The notes beneath the pieces were generated by a model. It ran no database searches. It was not told the origin of the DNA and worked only from the letters and a program-made list of their open reading frames with translations. Positions 3,531 to 60,652 of a DNA stretch of 64,000 bases are shown here, piece after piece. The translations under genes were made by a program, and so were the position numbers. Positions within the stretch are counted from its first letter, which is position 1, and every line of letters starts with the position of its first letter. Origin of the DNA: a virus; the IMG/VR virus record IMGVR_UViG_3300042565_001021, positions 1 to 64,000 of that record. One strand, given 5' to 3'.

Positions 3531-3958
3531 TGTGCTCCATTTTCTCCATCTTCACTTATGTCAATTATTACATTACGGTCAGGGTATTTAATTGCTATTT
3601 GAAGGTATAAGTCCTCGGTCATCATCTCGCAACTTTTATTGTTTAGTTTTAGAACTCCTTCATTGGCATATAATGATTCCAGCCAGCGTTTGAATTGTAT
3701 AAATTCAATCGAACGGTCGTTGTGCTTAACTTCGATGTGTACTTTAAAGTGAAAGGTATGTCTGTGAGGTGAAGCAAGAAAACTCACGTCATATTGGTCA
3801 CCGGTGGCGAGAGTGGGGTCGGTTGCTGCTGCTGGATAGGCGTGGATGCCTTCTTTGCGAAAGGTGGCCCAGATGTATCGTGCTGCGCGATTCATGTTGT
3901 TCATTGCGCGATCACGCCTTGCCGCTACTACGTTTAGTTCAGTGATGTTATCGTTCAT
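3509..3958 (-). CDS. hypothetical protein
   Basis: 149 residues, unrecognised. It is a soluble alpha/beta-looking protein with a His-rich stretch near residue 65 (SPHRHTFHFKVH). The 3' end overlaps the HNH gene by 22 bases on the other strand. The start overlaps the stop of the upstream gene by 4 bases, so it belongs to the minus-strand operon. Confidence 0.7.
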   Translation of the reverse strand: MNDNITELNVVAARRDRAMNNMNRAARYIWATFRKEGIHAYPAAATDPTLATGDQYDVSFLASPHRHTFHFKVHIEVKHNDRSIEFIQFKRWLESLYANEGVLKLNNKSCEMMTEDLYLQIAIKYPDRNVIIDISEDGENGAHYEFILS

Positions 3959-4494
3959 TTTAGCATCTTATCTTCGTTGTATTTGTCCCATGAAGTAAAA
4001 CTGTCGATGTCCATAAGTTTGTCTAACCTGTGACACCAGACCCCCGGATTCGTAGCATCGAATCCTTTGTCGTCGATCTTTATAGTTGTATTATAGTTGA
4101 GAAGTTTGATGTAGGGCAACTTAATTGAAATCATTGGGATGAATCGACGCTGTTCGGTTAGCCCGCCTTCAAGCAAGTTTTCAACTTGTTTGACATCTAA
4201 GTCAAGCGTTACCCAATACCCGTGGTCTAACCAAATGTCAATCATGTCTTCCCAAGTGCGCCAGTCGTCAGCTGTAACAGGATTAAAAGATTGGTTGGCT
4301 CCGAAGTAAATATGCCGAATTGGATGAGCAATAGAATCGCCTTCTTCTATCGATTGTCTGATCTGTTCTTCGGCCTGGAGCCCCACGACAAATAATGTGC
4401 CCATCCCTTTAGCCGGCGAATGTTCAACTTCAATGCCAGTAAAAAATGCTGCTTGAACTTGCTTGTTTGGCGCGTTAGCGTAATCTCTTTTCAT
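3955..4494 (-). CDS. conserved phage protein of unknown function
   Basis: 179 residues. The pattern AAFFTGIEVEHSPAKGMGTLF followed by IYFGANQSFNP recalls unnamed proteins of T4-like cyanophages. No catalytic motif is recognised. Both ends overlap neighbours by 4 bases, placing it in the operon that also carries the TGT/DpdA-like gene. Confidence 0.7.
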   Translation of the reverse strand: MKRDYANAPNKQVQAAFFTGIEVEHSPAKGMGTLFVVGLQAEEQIRQSIEEGDSIAHPIRHIYFGANQSFNPVTADDWRTWEDMIDIWLDHGYWVTLDLDVKQVENLLEGGLTEQRRFIPMISIKLPYIKLLNYNTTIKIDDKGFDATNPGVWCHRLDKLMDIDSFTSWDKYNEDKMLK

Positions 4495-8022: not shown

Positions 8023-10779
8023 TTAATCAAACGAAAATAATGAATCGAACGACGATTTGACTTGAGTATTGTTGGTAATATCCCAATTCAAAACTCCGAG
8101 TAAGTTTTCGAATTTCTTAGCGATAGTATCTTCCATTTCACTACTATCGAACGGTAAATCCTTAAACCAATCTGGAATATGAAGAACGTCTGTTGGATAA
8201 GCAACCGAAGTGTATCCCATCGGATTTGGGCGAAGCTTACAGACGATGACTTTCATTCCATCAACTATCTTCATGCTGTAATTGTCGCCATTCATTCGGC
8301 GTAAGATATTCCAATTCATTGCTGCTCTGACGTGTCCGGGCAAGTTCGACTTACCTTCGCGCTCTTCTGTTTCTGTGTAGTTCGTCAAGTTGTTTACACG
8401 TTTCGGAGAACCTTTTTCCCAAGCTGGGACTTCAGCAAAGAACCGCTTAAACTCTTTAATTTTCTCAATGATCTGTTCCTTTGGCACATCGAGAAGAACG
8501 TCTTGTAAAATAACGCTTAGGAATTCCTGAACGACCTTCGGGGTGTCGCTGCGTCGTAGATCAAGTCCAGTAGCCTTTACTTTACCTAACCCTTCAATAA
8601 CACCTTTCTTCTTTGCTGTTTCGTGATCATAGTGATCAAGTCGTGTACCTTCTTGCTCATATACTAGAATAGCATAACGCTTCTTAGTAACAAACAATCC
8701 ACTGAGAGCAACAGTTTCTCGGCCGCCTTTAATCAGCGTACCGCGCTCTGATGGGCAATGGCATTCCCTCTCCATCATTGCTGGGAAGCTTTCGTTTACT
8801 TGTTCAGCAATGCTGTCGTATAGTTGGATGGCTATCTCTTTGTTCCATTCCATTTTCTTTGCTTTGACATCATCTTTAACCATTGGCCAAGCAGAGAAGT
8901 AAGCAGAGTCAGTATCACCGTACACAATAGCTTCGCCGTTGTATTCGTATTTGCCCGTTAAGCATTCGTTAATGAATGCGTCCATGTGTCTCGCAATGAT
9001 ACGACCAGTTAACGTAGTAGATTGACCTAAGCGATGATCGTGGAATCTACAACCTGGGTTAAGCAATGCTCCGTACAAACTGTTTAGGTTAATCTTCTTA
9101 ACAAGCTGTCGCTTATCCCAGAACGCAATTTCTTCTTTATCAGTTGCTGCTTTCTTTTTAGCTTGTAGTTCTTTTCGTTCAGCGTACCAAGTTGCTAGTA
9201 GCGTAGGTATAATACCTTCTGTCTCGTATTGGAAGATCGTACCGTTTGCGCTCAGGACCCACTTCTGACCACCTTCGAAGATGATACGCCATACTTCGTC
9301 TGCTGTGTGAGCAGTAGATACCCCATCTTCTTCCCAGTCAATAATGATCTCGGTACCTTTCTCCATGTTCATAACTGCGGTGTACTCTAAACTACCGAAC
9401 AGTCCTTCCCACGCGCCAGCAAACGACGCACCTTTAATCGTTTTCTTACCTACCTTCTTATCGGCCATTTTCTCAGAAATGTATCTATCAGTCATTACTG
9501 GACGAAGCTGACCGACAATAGTTTCTGGACCCATGTTCAGGGCACGAATACACGAAGGGTACAGAGAGTTAATGTCGATTGCTCCGATGTATTTGTGCAT
9601 TCCTTTTCTCGGATAAGCAACATACGCACCGGCTGCCTTTTCTGTTAGGTCCTCTTCTTTATCCTCGTCGTCTTCGTTGTGGAATGTGCGTTCCTTGCGC
9701 GACGGAACAATAAGCCCTTGCTTATGAGCAGCATTGATGATTGCCTGGTCGGTGACCGCAACCGCTCCCATAGTTGTCTGTAGCAATACTGTGTTATCGT
9801 GCGCTAGTTCGTTTGTCAGGTCCAGGAATTTTAGCTTCTTGTCAAGCTTCGCTAGTAGTATAACGTCCTGTCTGTTATAGTCTAAGAACTTGTAGTAGTC
9901 TTGGTTATACAGTTGATCCAGTGATCCCTCGTAGGACACCTTTCTCTCACCTAGCTCGTACTCACCAATAGCATCCAGCGAATAGCTGTGACGCTCTTCG
10001 TAAGTGTACTTGCGATACAGTTGCATGTAGTCAAGGTGTACGCGGCCAATTAGATCAAATGTAGTGCTCTTAGCACCGTACCGTTCGAACTCTCGCTGCT
10101 TAGGAAGCTGACCCCACAAACACATACGACGCAGGTCATCTTTAGCTAAGGTACGAATGATTCGCCCTACAATGTAGGGTATGTCGTACCCTTCGCTGTT
10201 CCAACCTGTTAAAATATCTGCGTCGTCGATGAGAGTTAAGAAAGAGTCAAGCATGTCAGCTTCTCTTTCAAACACATAAGTATCGTCGAACTTATTTGCT
10301 ATCACTTCAGCAGCTTCTAAAGACAACGATTTCGGTGGAACAGATAAAGTAACTAACTTATCTAGCCAGTCAAAGTAAATCGTGATAGCAGTGATTTTGT
10401 TGAATGGGTTATCTGTCGGAGCGTATCCACCTTGCTCTATGTCAAAGTCTGCCTCGATGTCGATAAATGCTGTGTGTAGCTTAGGAGACTTTGCTCCCAT
10501 GTAGTTAGTTTCTAAGCATCGAAAGACTACGTTACAGTCATTTTCCCACAGCCGCTTTCCACTGTGGATACGCATCTCTTTCCTAAACTCTTTATTGGAA
10601 CGAGATGTGAATCTGCTTACTGGTGTGCGGTAGATTGTTTGATGCTTACCTTTTGGGTCATCGAAATAAAAAATATATTCCGCCGGGAAATCTCTGAATA
10701 CTCGATTCCCATCTTTGTCGCGTTCTACTACGTGAATGCGATCTTTCTCTCGGTCGTGCCGTGCGTCGACGTAACTCAA
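8023..10779 (-). CDS. 43: family B replicative DNA polymerase (gp43-like)
   Basis: 918 residues with all expected motifs. Exonuclease I is FIDIEADFD (Asp107/Glu109), exonuclease II GWNSEGYDIPYI, exonuclease III YNRQDVILLAKL. Polymerase A is DINSLYPS (about 402), B KKINLNSLYG (about 566), C YGDTDSAYF (about 620). The C-terminus FDSLFSFD is a likely clamp-binding peptide. It replicates phage DNA with gp45 and gp44. The start codon is TTG: AGGAG lies 7 bases upstream and no better start precedes it. A short hairpin with an 8-base loop lies just upstream of the ribosome binding site. Confidence 0.97.
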   Translation of the reverse strand: MSYVDARHDREKDRIHVVERDKDGNRVFRDFPAEYIFYFDDPKGKHQTIYRTPVSRFTSRSNKEFRKEMRIHSGKRLWENDCNVVFRCLETNYMGAKSPKLHTAFIDIEADFDIEQGGYAPTDNPFNKITAITIYFDWLDKLVTLSVPPKSLSLEAAEVIANKFDDTYVFEREADMLDSFLTLIDDADILTGWNSEGYDIPYIVGRIIRTLAKDDLRRMCLWGQLPKQREFERYGAKSTTFDLIGRVHLDYMQLYRKYTYEERHSYSLDAIGEYELGERKVSYEGSLDQLYNQDYYKFLDYNRQDVILLAKLDKKLKFLDLTNELAHDNTVLLQTTMGAVAVTDQAIINAAHKQGLIVPSRKERTFHNEDDEDKEEDLTEKAAGAYVAYPRKGMHKYIGAIDINSLYPSCIRALNMGPETIVGQLRPVMTDRYISEKMADKKVGKKTIKGASFAGAWEGLFGSLEYTAVMNMEKGTEIIIDWEEDGVSTAHTADEVWRIIFEGGQKWVLSANGTIFQYETEGIIPTLLATWYAERKELQAKKKAATDKEEIAFWDKRQLVKKINLNSLYGALLNPGCRFHDHRLGQSTTLTGRIIARHMDAFINECLTGKYEYNGEAIVYGDTDSAYFSAWPMVKDDVKAKKMEWNKEIAIQLYDSIAEQVNESFPAMMERECHCPSERGTLIKGGRETVALSGLFVTKKRYAILVYEQEGTRLDHYDHETAKKKGVIEGLGKVKATGLDLRRSDTPKVVQEFLSVILQDVLLDVPKEQIIEKIKEFKRFFAEVPAWEKGSPKRVNNLTNYTETEEREGKSNLPGHVRAAMNWNILRRMNGDNYSMKIVDGMKVIVCKLRPNPMGYTSVAYPTDVLHIPDWFKDLPFDSSEMEDTIAKKFENLLGVLNWDITNNTQVKSSFDSLFSFD

Positions 10780-17512: not shown

Positions 17513-18214
17513 TTAGGCCCAGAAGCTAGGTGCGCGGTTCTTAGTAGGAGCTCCGGTACTCTGGTAGTGTATGTCGACCATGTGAATAAACGGGTCAGGT
17601 ACTAGCCCGCCACTAACTGTTATGTCGTTAGAGTCAAGGAATAAACGACACTGAATCAAACCATCAACCTCTAAGTCTGTTGTATTAAGAAGAACACCTG
17701 ATCCACCCGGAGTAGAAGCTAGTCCTTCAGCGATCATATGCTGGTATTGGGTAGTGCTTGCGTTTTGAGAAACAGACACTGTAATAGGTGCTGGGAAAGC
17801 AGCCTGGTCGTGTCCTCTAGCATACATTAACTCAAACCCCCACGTTGTTGATCCACCGGTTACCAATGTACCTGTGTGTGACCAGTGAACGTGTATGTAT
17901 AAATTTGTTCCCATAGCGTAATCATGCGGCATATGGAAATCAACGCGCGCGCATTCCCCTTCGACAACTTGAACCGCGTGTATTCCGCCACGATATACTT
18001 GCCGGCTTCCTTAACCAGCCAGTCCGTAGATTTGAAGAGCACCTGTTAAATCGTGCCACCCAAATGTTTCTGATCCATTTGGCCCAATTTTAAGCCCCTT
18101 ACCCTGGGTCTTTGGAACCATTAGGTTAACACCATCACGGAGGTCCGTGAAGTTCGTGTCCATTTCAGCGTGGGTTAGTTCTGATCCCTTAACATTTCGT
18201 AGTGTGATAGTCAT
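17513..18214 (-). pseudogene. tail-fibre-like gene interrupted by an in-frame TAA
   Basis: One reading frame of 234 codons runs through this interval with a single TAA at 18011-18013. The first 67 residues (MTITLRNVKGSELTHAEMDT, then NFTDLRDGVN) are a common fibre/neck N-terminus. After the stop the same frame continues GSRQVYRGGIHAVQ, FHMPHDYAMG and on to FWA. Protein sense on both sides of the stop and the unchanged frame show a single ancestral gene. The downstream ATG at 17932 has no ribosome binding site. The stop lies in TAAGGAAG, itself RBS-like. It may be a true nonsense mutation, readthrough or a sequence error. Confidence 0.75.
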
Positions 18215-45989: not shown

Positions 45990-46017
45990 ATTATACGCTC
46001 TTTTACGGAAAAGTCAA
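45990..46017 (-). promoter_or_regulatory. sigma70-like early promoter
   Basis: TTGACT (46012-46017), 16-bp spacer, perfect TATAAT (45990-45995), in front of 45726-45956. Confidence 0.65.
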
Positions 46018-46367: not shown

Positions 46368-47027
46368 ATGTATATTTATTACGTTTACGCGTACCTCCGA
46401 AGTAAAGACTCAGCAACCGCTAAGGCCGGAACACCTTATTACATTGGTAAAGGCAAAGATGCCCGAATTGATAAACTACACGGGAAAGTTCCGGTACCAA
46501 AAGACAAAAAGAATCGAGTTGTTCTCGAAAGACACTTATCTGAAATTGGCGCCTTTGCCATTGAGCGTCGACTAGTAAGATGGTTTGGTCGTAAGGACTT
46601 AGGAACAGGAATACTATTAAATCAAACAGATGGCGGAGAAGGTTCTGCAGGTAGAATAATGCCAGAATCTGAACGGAAAAATAGATCAGCTCGCAATAAA
46701 GGAAAACCCGGAAGAATCTGGACTGAGGCTGAAAGACTAAACAAATCAACTCAGATGAAAGGTAGATTGCGAACAGCCGAGCAAAGGAAAGTAACATCTG
46801 AGTCATTGAAAGGTAAAGCAAAGCCGCCACGATCCGCCGAGCATAGCGCGAATCTTTCGAGGTCATTGGCAGGTAGGATTAGGAAACCGCTAACTCAAGA
46901 ACATATCGCAAATATCTCAGCCGGAAAAATAGGCAAAACTAAAGGGAAACCGTGGAGCCAAGCAAGAAGAGATGCTCACATTAAACGGTTGGCGCTTCGG
47001 GCTCAGTTGGTGTCGTCTCGGGCGTAG
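46368..47027 (+). CDS. GIY-YIG homing endonuclease with NUMOD3 repeats
   Basis: 219 residues. [38 protein letters not shown] and QTDGGEG form the GIY-YIG core; the C-terminal part has NUMOD3-like repeats ([43 protein letters not shown]). Opposite strand to neighbours. Another ATG 8 bases upstream (46360), nearer to the AAAGGG ribosome binding site, is out of frame. The 3' end overlaps the convergent gene by 47 bases. Clearly related to the GIY-YIG genes at 6248 and 11236. Confidence 0.92.
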
Positions 47028-47443: not shown

Positions 47444-48228
47444 ATGTCAGCAATGTATTTAACAAACAAATATACTAAGTGGTATAATAACATCATATTA
47501 ACCGCCAAAGCAAGAAGCTTGCTCAAAATTGGTTATTCTGAGAAACATCATATAATACCTAAATCGCTGGGTGGAAACAACAGTAAAGATAACATTGTTG
47601 CTTTAACCGCAAGAGAACACTATGTTTGCCATTTACTTTTACCTAAGATGACCACCGGTAAGGATAGAAATAAAATGGCCTACGCTCTCTCCACCGTATG
47701 CTAAGTGGAAATAGCGATAGGTATCTTCCTAAATCAAAAATATACGAACTTGTTCGTAAATCTATTAAGTCAATGCTTCTCGGTCGTGTTTTCACTAAAG
47801 ACACTCTACAGAAAATGAGTCTGGCAAAGAAAGGAAAACCTAAACCAGATGACATAGCAGCTCGGCTCCGTGTTGCTCGAAAAGGAATGACTAATAGTCA
47901 AGCACATAGAGACAAGTGTTCGTATGCGCTGAGCGGTAGAACCTTCTCAGATACAGCTAAAAAGAATATGAGCTTAAACCACGCAGATGTGGCAGGAAGT
48001 GGCAACCCAAGAGCAAGAGTATGGTTAGTAACAGACCCCAATGGAAAAGAAACTGTATTAAACGGTAACATGGGACAATTTTGCCAAGAAAATAACTTAC
48101 CTGTTTCAGTAATGAGATCAATTGGCCGCGGAAATCGGCCCCCTAAGAGTGGAAGATGCGTTGGTTGGGGTGTATCTCTTATTTCCGACGAATCCGACAT
48201 AATTCTATTAAGGTCGCGGACAGGTTAA
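47444..48228 (+). pseudogene. HNH homing endonuclease, frameshifted
   Basis: The first 86 codons encode an HNH domain (EKHHIIPKSLGGNNSKDNIV, LTAREHYVCHLLL) and stop at 47701-47703 after MAYALSTVC. The expected continuation MAYALHRMLSGNSDRYLPKS is in another frame that runs to 48228. It has NUMOD-type words (SLAKKGKPKPDD, LNGNMGQFCQENNLP, GRCVGWGVSL). The shift sits at a CTCTCT repeat (about 47676-47683) that is 2 bases longer than the protein requires. Likely a decaying endonuclease; recoding or a read error is possible. The 3' end overlaps the gp44 gene by 50 bases. Confidence 0.85.
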
Positions 48229-49562: not shown

Positions 49563-49753
49563 TTAATGTTTTCTTTCTCTAGGATAGTTAAAGTTACTGC
49601 TTTCCGTATCTTCTTAGCTGATACATGTTCTGGTTCTTGCCATGGTTTAAGAATAGGCAAGAACCCTTGTTTCTTTCGTTCTTTCTCAGCCCTGGCTTGG
49701 TAAATTCTACTAGCCTCTTTAATAGTAACCATCATCGGATACTTTTTGCTCAT
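49559..49753 (-). CDS. small basic hypothetical protein
   Basis: 64 residues, very basic and helical (RIYQARAEKERKKQ), unrecognised. Overlaps of 4 bases on both sides place it in the co-chaperonin operon. Confidence 0.65.
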   Translation of the reverse strand: MSKKYPMMVTIKEASRIYQARAEKERKKQGFLPILKPWQEPEHVSAKKIRKAVTLTILEKENIK

Positions 49754-50112
49754 TTTTTAGATTTCGATACTGTGCTTGCTAATGTGCCACGCATTGGCTT
49801 TGCTGTTGGCTTTGGTGCTACTACGGCCTCTTGTGGTTCTTCAAAGTCAGACTCGTCAAGCCCAGATTTTGCGCTAATAGGTGCGTCTGCTTGCGCTGTG
49901 TGCTTAGGCGGATCCATTGCGGTCGGAGTCTTCAGAGCGTAATACTCTTTCATTATCTGATCTTTAGTTTTCACTACTTTGCCGCCGCGGCCGAGCTCGT
50001 CGCCCCTAGCATTTACTTTCATGTTACCGATAGCAATCGCTGTGTCATTTTTAAGGAATAGTTTTTCAACGTCGACTACTTTCCCCATCGCTGTTCTGTG
50101 AATCTTTGGCAT
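49750..50112 (-). CDS. conserved T4-like phage protein
   Basis: 120 residues. VNARGDELGRGGKVVKTKDQ with IMKEYYAL is a block I associate with an unnamed conserved protein of T4-like cyanophages; the C-terminus is Pro/Ala/Lys-rich. Probably late: an exact TATAAATA lies at 50136-50143, and CAGGAG precedes the ATG. Confidence 0.7.
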   Translation of the reverse strand: MPKIHRTAMGKVVDVEKLFLKNDTAIAIGNMKVNARGDELGRGGKVVKTKDQIMKEYYALKTPTAMDPPKHTAQADAPISAKSGLDESDFEEPQEAVVAPKPTAKPMRGTLASTVSKSKK

Positions 50113-52319: not shown

Positions 52320-52698
52320 TTGCGTCTACGCTGAACTTACCGCCTGGATAACGAGACTCAAGCTTAGTTACATTGTCGGCAATGATTTGGTTTGGATCAA
52401 GATTAAGAGCGCGACATGCGTTAGTCCAATACCAAATTACATCACCTAATTCTTTTGCACAATGGGCGCGGGTTTCTTCAGTAAAGGGTTTGCCGTGAAA
52501 CAGGATTTTCTTAAAGATTTCCGAAAACTCACCAGCTTCACCAGACATACCCATTGCCGCTGTAAGGGCAAGAGAGATGTTTAGATTGCCATCCAAGTCA
52601 ATTTGGTAAATGCGTTGGGTAAAATCAGTTGCGCTTTCCGAATCGCGGCTGGTGATAGCTTTAACAAATTCGGTGTATTTTTGTAGATCAATCTGCAT
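52291..52698 (-). CDS. mazG: MazG-like nucleotide pyrophosphohydrolase
   Basis: 135 residues. MGMSGEAGEFSEIFKKILFH contains the ExxE metal motif, and CAKELGDVIWYWTNACRALN the second ExxD, as in MazG/phage MazG. The enzyme removes pyrophosphate from NTPs; in phages it may act on (d)NTP pools. It has a near-consensus sigma70 promoter (52723-52751) embedded in an inverted repeat that can hide its ribosome binding site in longer transcripts. Confidence 0.88.
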   Translation of the reverse strand: MQIDLQKYTEFVKAITSRDSESATDFTQRIYQIDLDGNLNISLALTAAMGMSGEAGEFSEIFKKILFHGKPFTEETRAHCAKELGDVIWYWTNACRALNLDPNQIIADNVTKLESRYPGGKFSVDASENRAQGDI

Positions 52699-52702
52699 AA
52701 CA

Positions 52703-52746
52703 TCTCCTGATTAAGTTCTACCATTATAGCAGAACGAACCAGGAGA
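52703..52746 (-). promoter_or_regulatory. RBS-sequestering hairpin around the mazG early promoter
   Basis: Outer arms TCTCCTG and CAGGAGA (7 bp, 52740-52746 with 52703-52709) and inner arms GTTCT and AGAAC (5 bp, 52731-52735 with 52715-52719). The downstream outer arm is the mazG ribosome binding site. The promoter -10 lies in the loop, so promoter-initiated RNA lacks both upstream arms whereas read-through RNA has them. Confidence 0.65.
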
Positions 52747-52751
52747 GTCAA
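52723..52751 (-). promoter_or_regulatory. sigma70-like promoter of mazG
   Basis: TTGACT (52746-52751), 17-bp spacer, perfect TATAAT (52723-52728). Confidence 0.7.
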
Positions 52752-52760
52752 ACATTATGG

Positions 52761-53711
52761 TTAGCCAAATGTGGCACCGTTGTTACCAACGCAGAACCAT
52801 TTTGAACCAACGTACCTTAAGGTACATGCCTCACCAACTGCGTCTAACGTAATGGTACCAGAACCACCCCAGCCTGGGTTAGTAACCGTGATAACATACG
52901 CATCGGTCGGTCCCGAGTTTGCTAACATCATGAATTCGTGTAACTGGCCTTCCCTTGATCCTGCTGCAAATGTAGCAGTGCTTGGTCCTGCTGCCAATGA
53001 AATATGTGAGCTTGTAACTGCTACGTTACCAACACCTGGACTAGTTAATGTCTGTGCTGGTCCGACCCATACGTTAGCGGTTAGACCAGATACATCAGTT
53101 TGTAGAGTCGTTACATCGGCCGCGATAGCAACTTCTTCTGGGCTCTGTACGCCTGTTGGACCAACTAGTAACTTAACTGTAACTGCTAATCCTGCGTTAG
53201 CCGAACTGAACTCAAACAGGTAGTTACCTGCCACTGGTGGAGTAAAGACCTGTCCAGTAACTCCGGGAATCTGTCCTAAGCCAAAGACAACTTCAGCAGG
53301 GAAAGTTAGCGTTTCAGTGATAAGCATTCCTGTAAACAATACCTGAATCGTCGAATACTGTCCAGAAGCTGGCCAATTAGCGTAAGATAGAGTTAAGTTT
53401 TCAGTTACTTCTTTAGTCTGATAATCACCGAGTGAATAGTCAATTGCTAGAGTAGCACCTGCACCGGTTGTGTAGTTGTGTACTTTTTCAGTTGCACCCC
53501 ATAACTTAGGATTCTTTAGGGTCGTAGTAGCTAGGTTGTTTTCTGCTCCAATAGTAACTGCGCTACTTTGAAGAGCAGTAATCTCACTTTCAGCAACTTG
53601 CAGGTTAGACCTGATGTTAGTGAAGTTGTCACGGAATCCTTGGCTATCGTTGTCCTGTCCGGCAATTGGATAGGCTACGTTGATATTTGCTGGGTAAATA
53701 TTGCTTGCCAT
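52761..53711 (-). CDS. tail fibre / virion structural protein
   Basis: 316 residues. The N-terminus (INVAYPIAGQDNDSQGFRDN, FTNIRSNL) carries the FRDNFTNI word shared in form with the other fibre genes here. The rest is beta-rich, Thr/Ala/Gly-rich, ending GEACTLRYVGSKWFCVGNNG, typical of T4-like cyanophage fibre ends. Two tandem late boxes (53740-53755) lie upstream. Confidence 0.72.
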   Translation of the reverse strand: MASNIYPANINVAYPIAGQDNDSQGFRDNFTNIRSNLQVAESEITALQSSAVTIGAENNLATTTLKNPKLWGATEKVHNYTTGAGATLAIDYSLGDYQTKEVTENLTLSYANWPASGQYSTIQVLFTGMLITETLTFPAEVVFGLGQIPGVTGQVFTPPVAGNYLFEFSSANAGLAVTVKLLVGPTGVQSPEEVAIAADVTTLQTDVSGLTANVWVGPAQTLTSPGVGNVAVTSSHISLAAGPSTATFAAGSREGQLHEFMMLANSGPTDAYVITVTNPGWGGSGTITLDAVGEACTLRYVGSKWFCVGNNGATFG

Positions 53712-53739
53712 GTAAAATGTCCTTATTAAGTGTATTACT

Positions 53740-53755
53740 TATTTATCTATTTATC
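53740..53755 (-). promoter_or_regulatory. tandem late promoter boxes
   Basis: GATAAATAGATAAATA on the minus strand: two adjacent copies of the late box, the nearer one 28 bases before the ATG of 52761-53711. Confidence 0.65.
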
Positions 53756-59461: not shown

Positions 59462-60652
59462 TTACGGCCAGGTCGAAACTACGCTCAATGCAGTACGAGA
59501 CCAAATGTCTGATATTCCGTCGGTCCAGGTTGCAGTACAGTAATAAAGATAGGATGCATCTATTGCAACATCTCCGATTGTGTTGCCAGTTTGTCCTTTT
59601 GACGTAGTAGGTGCAGTTGCTACAAATCCGTCCCCTATCAGCCCAGAGTAACCAGAGACACCAGAGTAACCTGAGGTGCTCGAATAACCTGAATAGCCGC
59701 TTGTTCCTTCTATACCACTAATTCCTGAGTACCCACTTGTTCCATCAATTCCTGAATAGCCGCTTGTTCCGTCTATACCACTAATTCCTGAATAGCCGCT
59801 TGTTCCTGAATAACCAGAGATACCTGACGTACCGCTAGAGCCCGAGTACCCAGAAGTTCCGCTGACCCCCGAATACCCACTCTTTCCGCTTGTTCCTGAC
59901 GCGCCACCTAACCCTGAGTATCCAGAGATTCCGCTTGTTCCAGAGATACCCGAGTAACCGCTTCTGCCTGAGGTACCGCTCTCACCTGAGTAACCAGACG
60001 TACCACTTACTCCTGATTTCCCACTTGCGCCGCTAGACCCCGAATATCCAGAAGTTCCGCTTGTTCCAGAGATGCCTGAGTAACCGCTTCTGCCTGAGGT
60101 ACCGCTCTCACCGCTATAACCCGACCATCCGCTCTTTCCTGAGGTACCACTAATTCCTGAGTAACCTGAGGTACTTTGTCCCGAGATTCCCGAGTAACCA
60201 GAAGAACCACTTAGTCCAGATATGCCGCTGTACCCTGAGGTACCAGAATACCCGCTCTTACCAGACCATCCGCTAGTACCAGAAAGTCCTATCCCGCTAT
60301 GTCCTGAATAACCCGATACTCCTGAGTAGCCGCTTGCGCCGTCTATGCCCGAGTATCCGCTTGTACCGTCTATACCTGAATAACCACTAAGCCCGCCTGG
60401 TTGCCCGCTAACTCCTGAGTATCCACTCGGGCCTGCTACGTTGCTTGAGAACCCAGAATAGCCACTTAGACCACCAGCTTGTCCGCTAACTCCCGAAAAT
60501 CCGCTAGGGCCGACTGCGCCACTATATCCGCTAGTCCCGCCGGCGGTGTATAGTTCAGTGAAGTTTTGGTTGATTTTGTCGAACGACGCCCGTAATGGAT
60601 CGCCGCTGCCATCTGAAGGCACTGTGCCGATATTGATTGTTTGCTTTGCCAT
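59462..60652 (-). CDS. collagen-like tail fibre protein (Gly-Xaa-Ser repeats)
   Basis: 396 residues. The N-terminus INIGTVPSDGSGDPLRASFD then NQNFTELY is the shared fibre attachment motif. From about residue 40 to 335 the chain is an almost pure triplet repeat Gly-Xaa-Ser (GYSGISGTSGKSGWSG), with Tyr frequent at Xaa and Ser nearly fixed, a collagen-like layout lacking proline. The last 60 residues are a globular end (GNTIGDVAIDASYLYYCTAT). It likely forms a trimeric shaft. The start lies in a 13-bp inverted repeat with the late box in its loop. Confidence 0.85.
   Translation of the reverse strand: MAKQTINIGTVPSDGSGDPLRASFDKINQNFTELYTAGGTSGYSGAVGPSGFSGVSGQAGGLSGYSGFSSNVAGPSGYSGVSGQPGGLSGYSGIDGTSGYSGIDGASGYSGVSGYSGHSGIGLSGTSGWSGKSGYSGTSGYSGISGLSGSSGYSGISGQSTSGYSGISGTSGKSGWSGYSGESGTSGRSGYSGISGTSGTSGYSGSSGASGKSGVSGTSGYSGESGTSGRSGYSGISGTSGISGYSGLGGASGTSGKSGYSGVSGTSGYSGSSGTSGISGYSGTSGYSGISGIDGTSGYSGIDGTSGYSGISGIEGTSGYSGYSSTSGYSGVSGYSGLIGDGFVATAPTTSKGQTGNTIGDVAIDASYLYYCTATWTDGISDIWSRTALSVVSTWP
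59640..60540 (-). repeat. tandem Gly-Xaa-Ser coding repeat
   Basis: About 900 bases of 9-base-based direct repeats (codons for Gly-Xaa-Ser). Third codon positions vary between copies, but several blocks recur almost unchanged, for example around 59930-59995 and 60055-60115 (Ser-Gly-Glu-Ser-Gly-Thr-Ser-Gly-Arg...), indicating recent duplication of segments. Confidence 0.8.

Follow-up and report, generated by a model that had tools for sequence, protein, structure and literature searches.

A candidate translation switch with a nested early promoter in the leader of a viral mazG gene and of other phage genes

We found that the leader of mazG interleaves a sigma70-type promoter with a two-part inverted repeat over the SD of the gene, within 52703-52751 on the minus strand of the window (the whole stretch of 64,000 nt that was analysed, positions 1-64000 of the 155,045-bp record of an uncultured T4-like phage; most genes lie on this strand). 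The observation is confirmed, and the original prediction had described and placed the element correctly. We consider it probable that the leader is a cis-acting translation insulator built from an early promoter inside an SD-sequestering hairpin: RNA begun at the gene's own promoter would start past both 5′ arms, leave the SD free and be translated, whereas RNA from upstream (here the late fibre transcript) would keep the 5′ arms, and the hairpin, if it forms in vivo as we infer, would hide the mazG SD and block ribosomes. MazG protein would then be made early, with none coming from late read-through RNA, and the benefit would presumably be one of timing. Our computations covered the anatomy of the leader, its folding difference, the covarying conservation of its arms, the co-occurrence of promoter and hairpin, and the recurrence of the layout at other genes and in T4 (Table 1).

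The promoter (TTGACT-17-TATAAT, 52751-52723) has an extended -10 and 11 of 12 matches to the sigma70-type hexamers. The outer arms form 10 pairs, one of them G-U, and the SD (AGGAG, 52708-52704) in the outer 3′ arm is followed by an ATG starting at 52698. No ATAAATA lies between the arms of the hairpin; the nested promoter is sigma70-like. None of the Rfam 15 models matched the leader element up to E=1. A reading of the hairpin as an intrinsic terminator or attenuator was tried and rejected (no U-run, no T6 run and no terminator-like site in the gap before mazG).

Table 1. Features of the mazG region (window coordinates) and other starts with an early promoter nested in an SD hairpin.
Feature	Location	Strand	Remarks
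mazG, MazG-like nucleotide pyrophosphohydrolase, 135 aa	52291..52698	-	Pfam PF03819, E=1.9e-6; PHROG 229, E=5.7e-43
Outer 3′ arm AATCAGGAGA	52703..52712	-	contains the SD
Inner 3′ arm TGGTAGAAC	52715..52723	-	from predicted fold; pairs with GTTCTGCTA across the -10
Predicted transcription start region	52716..52719	-	inferred: 4-7 nt past the -10
mazG promoter -10 hexamer TATAAT, TGn extension	52723..52728	-	spans the hairpin's inner stem and loop
Inner 5′ arm GTTCTGCTA	52727..52735	-	from predicted fold
Outer 5′ arm TCTCCTGGTT (anti-SD)	52737..52746	-	in promoter spacer; shares last -35 base
mazG promoter -35 hexamer TTGACT	52746..52751	-	sequence
Fibre-like structural gene directly upstream of mazG	52761..53711	-	presumed source of late read-through RNA
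Tandem T4-type late-promoter-like motifs GATAAATAGATAAATA	53739..53754	-	precede the fibre gene
Small ORFs after fibre gene	L134, L081, L079		promoter-in-hairpin case
Other NTP pyrophosphohydrolases after fibre gene	L085, L073		promoter-in-hairpin case
dNMP kinase or another ORF after head-tail adaptor gene	L178, L192, L014		promoter-in-hairpin case
Two further non-mazG cases	L211, L073		promoter-in-hairpin case
T4 regB	L223 (T4 AF158101), record 62740		early-nested start
T4 denV	L223 (T4 AF158101), record 65355		early-nested start
T4 nrdC.8	L223 (T4 AF158101), record 53885		early-nested start
T4 30.8	L224, 130253		early-nested start
T4, near ndd.4	L225, about 166749		early-nested start

The two RNAs that could carry mazG differ sharply in their predicted folds: opening the SD costs 14.3-14.8 kcal/mol in read-through RNA and 1.2-1.4 kcal/mol in RNA from the predicted start, which lacks both 5′ arms, as had been proposed from the geometry. 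Where other genes of the record have both an early promoter and an SD that can be recognised, opening costs 0.7-4.7 kcal/mol. When only the 17-nt promoter spacer was shuffled, SD opening fell to 3.8 ± 2.1 kcal/mol against the 15.4 observed, which none of 300 shuffles matched. By the score of the helix on the SD side, mazG ranks third among the 265 gene starts of the 155-kb record; among the 12 top-scoring starts, no other has a strong promoter flanked by the arms.

We collected 153 loci with a MazG relative, giving 120 distinct leaders, from viral contigs and one isolate record. A syntenic set of 28 distinct loci has an upstream gene ending 41-71 nt before mazG where the contig reaches (recognisably fibre-like in most of them) and a polymerase III alpha-like gene following mazG. 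The element is present in 17 of these 28, each with a spacer-shuffle P of 0.003-0.013, although the loci are related and the tests are not independent; in these 17, SD opening costs 8.5-15.5 kcal/mol, and 0.1-3.0 kcal/mol in promoter RNA where this could be computed. Seven of these 17 loci have upstream sites that resemble late promoters. A strong SD hairpin is absent from the remaining 11 loci, one of which (L043) has an intrinsic-terminator-like hairpin and T-run between the fibre gene and mazG, at about 3927-3991. The other 92 distinct leaders yielded none that passed the detector, and the short stretches near homologous genes in the isolates PA5oct, Atu_ph07, Phosso and 121Q contained no clear instance; L176, truncated by a contig end, resembles a weaker instance. 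As judged by these comparisons, the mazG-leader element is conserved in relatives.

The fibre-like gene upstream of mazG had no match of its own in family profile searches (Pfam, PHROG), and its N-terminus (SQGFRDNFTNI) is kept across the syntenic loci. Its late-promoter-like GATAAATA sites stand at positions 53754 and 53746. In noncoding DNA, ATAAATA occurs 23 times on the minus strand, against 3.9 expected, and this enrichment makes it very probable that the virus relies on T4-type late promoters; a search of the record for gp55 and gp33 homologues gave no match, and the same search was also silent on its controls. The 62-nt gap between the end of the fibre gene (52761) and the mazG start was scanned and holds no terminator-like site. 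Since late promoters stand on the fibre gene and no terminator separates it from mazG, late RNA is likely to cross from one into the other, in line with the read-through that had been predicted.

Hairpins like that of T4 lysozyme, with an ATAAATA late promoter between the arms, were also seen in the window (59462-60652, 18011-18214 and 49750-50112) and elsewhere in the record (93280-93972 and 124488-125111); in the one at 49750 the arm stops just short of the SD, and the one at record 93280 has two alternative pairings. A compact late-nested device, CTCCAGATAAATA followed by the pairing TATCTGGAG, stands before genes in L183, L185, L187, L192, L204, L169, L176 and others, and the late-nested class as a whole was observed 15 times in relatives against 1.5 expected. 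At record 114270-114296, upstream of a minus-strand gene (113917-114270), a late promoter is followed by an SD in the loop of the perfect hairpin TACTGTAAG-GAGA-CTTACAGTA. We made three further observations in the same DNA. A family of near-identical early promoters and leaders (GGTTGACY-16/17-GTATAATA...ACGGA) lies near record positions 46017, 85300, 98260, 98903, 117151 and 117620. Perfect or near-perfect sigma70 promoters stand 6-9 nt before the assigned ATG at record 144337, 73391, 71390 and 65493, which may be leaderless genes or misassigned starts. Plus-strand ORFs among the minus-strand genes look by eye like homing endonucleases (window 46368-47027, GIY-YIG-like; 47444-48228, HNH-like, in two overlapping frames).

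The layout is not confined to mazG. When every fetched locus was searched for a promoter with at least 10 of 12 matches, an SD and a pairing spacer, 26 promoter-plus-SD starts with a strong helix emerged, against 1.55 expected, and 10 of the 26 are at genes other than mazG. We also scanned IMG/VR with the pattern TTGACTCCTN{22,38}AGGAGTTTT, which imposes neither the inner pairing nor a -10, and obtained 66 distinct elements among those fetched. Their inner positions are paired in 94/91/77/77% of cases, compared with 44/54/39/42% after permutation; the helix is extended in 59 of the 66, and a correctly spaced -10 is found in 58 of these 59, as opposed to 1 of the 7 others. Across instances the pairing is 9-18 bp long. 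Downstream genes include those for a DexA-like exonuclease (22), MazG (15) and a 60-aa membrane protein (12), and the upstream genes encode fibre-like proteins and also PRA-PH/MazG-like and Bax1-I-like proteins. In L290, the promoter-in-hairpin layout also occurs at the gene for a Mutator-family (IS256-like) transposase (element at 10472-10515), a parallel to IS10.

Applied to phage T4, the detector recovered known late-nested leaders (e.g., gene e and I-TevII). In T4 we also observed five early-nested SD hairpins, against 0.055 expected. The regB leaders of T4 and four relatives all carry one (SD opening 10-15 kcal/mol, with differing arms). Among seven denV leaders from T4-like phages, five show the arrangement clearly and another more weakly, most with arms that differ in sequence; in PS49 the hairpin is placed differently. 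Lysozyme or internal head genes precede denV in these phages, so that an early gene stands behind late ones, as mazG does behind the fibre gene; T4 regB is preceded by vs.3. The early promoter of regB is switched off after 2-3 minutes, and self-cleavage at its SD has been described with no mention of a leader hairpin (PMC3014915). In two T4 reviews (PMC3014915, PMC2988022), regB and denV are not given as hairpin-controlled; our coverage of the older T4 literature was thin, and an earlier mention is possible.

Viewed across these other genes as well, the device appears to let a gene be translated only from RNA of its own promoter, and to do so at many genes, some of which do not stand behind late ones. 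The original prediction had read the mazG leader as a switch that is on early and off for late read-through; the geometry, the folding contrast and the comparative evidence favour this at mazG, but it was too narrow in being limited to mazG and to late-to-early junctions, given that the layout also precedes genes for a DexA-like exonuclease, a dNMP kinase and small ORFs as well as T4 regB and denV. Its premise of a late gene upstream suits the fibre gene here and does not extend to all instances, some of which follow genes that are not structural, nor does every syntenic locus have the hairpin. Since the upstream gene is in some cases not clearly a late one, the description "translated only from its own promoter" is better supported, and "early on, late off" is likely what this rule means at mazG and denV. 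We lean towards a general class of own-promoter-only switches across T4-like and related large phages, with regB and denV as members, in which early genes would go untranslated once early promoters stop, even though RNA still crosses them. This class has apparently not been described so far.

A neighbouring reading, which we hold to be unlikely though worth weighing, keeps the insulation and drops the timing: the hairpin would stop translation from any upstream RNA, be it early, middle or late (because such translation is wasteful or polar, for example), and the late fibre context would be incidental. The instances behind early-type genes (e.g., PRA-PH/MazG-like ones) and the position of T4 regB after vs.3 fit it, and those behind PRA-PH/MazG-like or Bax1-I-like genes, which are not obviously late, indicate that timing is not the whole story. 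Yet a structural or lysis-related gene stands upstream both at mazG and at denV of the T4-like phages, and late-promoter-like sites are found in the window as well as in several relatives. We regard it as improbable that the element serves mainly in RNA processing or stability (for example as a site for RNase III or one related to RegB) and controls translation only secondarily. T4 RegB does cleave GGAG in the SDs of early mRNAs, its own included, and a hairpin could shield such a site (PMC3014915); the promoter RNA, however, is without the 5′ arm, and the productive mRNA can therefore gain no stability from the element.

The arms themselves bear on the remaining readings and again suggest that the mazG leader acts through RNA pairing at the SD. 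Whole-leader MAFFT alignment misaligned some arms, so we used an alignment of 16 mazG loci anchored on the predicted fold; in this alignment, whose anchoring leans towards pairing, the helix is 86.9% paired versus 72.0% when shuffled. Changes on both sides occur in 30 cells (11.3 when shuffled), and the covariation score is 0.401, compared with 0.132 for shuffled arms and 0.02-0.065 for slid partners. In 18 loci the own arms sum to -264.6 kcal/mol, while permuted arms have a mean of -182 (sd 10) and none of 20000 permutations match; exchanging arms among loci thus weakens the summed pairing by about 82 kcal/mol. With its centre on the promoter, where operators usually lie, the repeat could in principle be a DNA palindrome bound by a phage repressor, with the overlap of the SD secondary. 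A shared repressor would conserve the letters, but these vary widely among relatives while the pairing is kept; moreover, the arm shifts within the promoter spacer (in L115) and the 3′ arm always spans the SD. We therefore rule out an operator as the main reading and give it very little credence otherwise. Chance complementarity between a promoter spacer and a common SD is practically negligible: CTCCT/AGGAG alone is short, but the pairing reaches 9-18 bp with covariation, far above shuffles, and the comparative counts contradict chance.

If the own-promoter-only reading is true, phages would have modular timing control without terminators or repressors. The temporal decoupling of RNA and protein in T4 is still unexplained in general (PMC9697503), and the device would explain simply, and in a way open to test, how production of early phage proteins can end while their genes are still transcribed. 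The same layout apparently exists at regB and denV of T4, which makes the device accessible to tests in a laboratory phage.

Among known systems, the leaders of T4 genes e, soc, 49 and I-TevI are hairpin-controlled (PMC3014915), and the T4 genes under such control are all late (PMC2988022). As at mazG, the arms of an SD-sequestering hairpin flank a promoter, and, as predicted for mazG, upstream RNA is silent and promoter RNA is translated (PMC3014915, PMC2988022). The mazG leader shares with them a predicted SD-sequestering helix and a predicted nested promoter; gene e-type leaders, however, enclose a late promoter and silence early read-through, whereas the mazG promoter is of the early sigma70 type. 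The early-nested leaders of T4 regB and denV found in our scan are like mazG in both respects. On this predicted layout the mazG device is the lysozyme-type switch in reversed polarity, the mirror image that had been proposed, and with the late-nested hairpins of the same record the switch would, if this is true, work in both polarities within one genome.

The transposase of IS10 is protected from external read-through: its own promoter lies between the arms, and external RNA hides the SD. Such protection of the IS10/Tn10 transposase (and that of IS200) from external promoters by RNA structure was reportedly described by Davis et al. in 1985 and Beuzon et al. in 1999, both of which are cited in PMC2965389. 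IS10 and IS200 are transposable elements with no infection timing, whereas the product of mazG is a nucleotide pyrophosphohydrolase, and the device is found here in phage operons that follow a temporal programme, with mazG itself set in a gene order conserved among phages. In IS10, and by prediction at mazG, the gene's own promoter is nested in the hairpin and only external RNA folds; by this analogy IS10 protection appears to be the closest known mechanistic parallel, closer than the T4 lysozyme switch.
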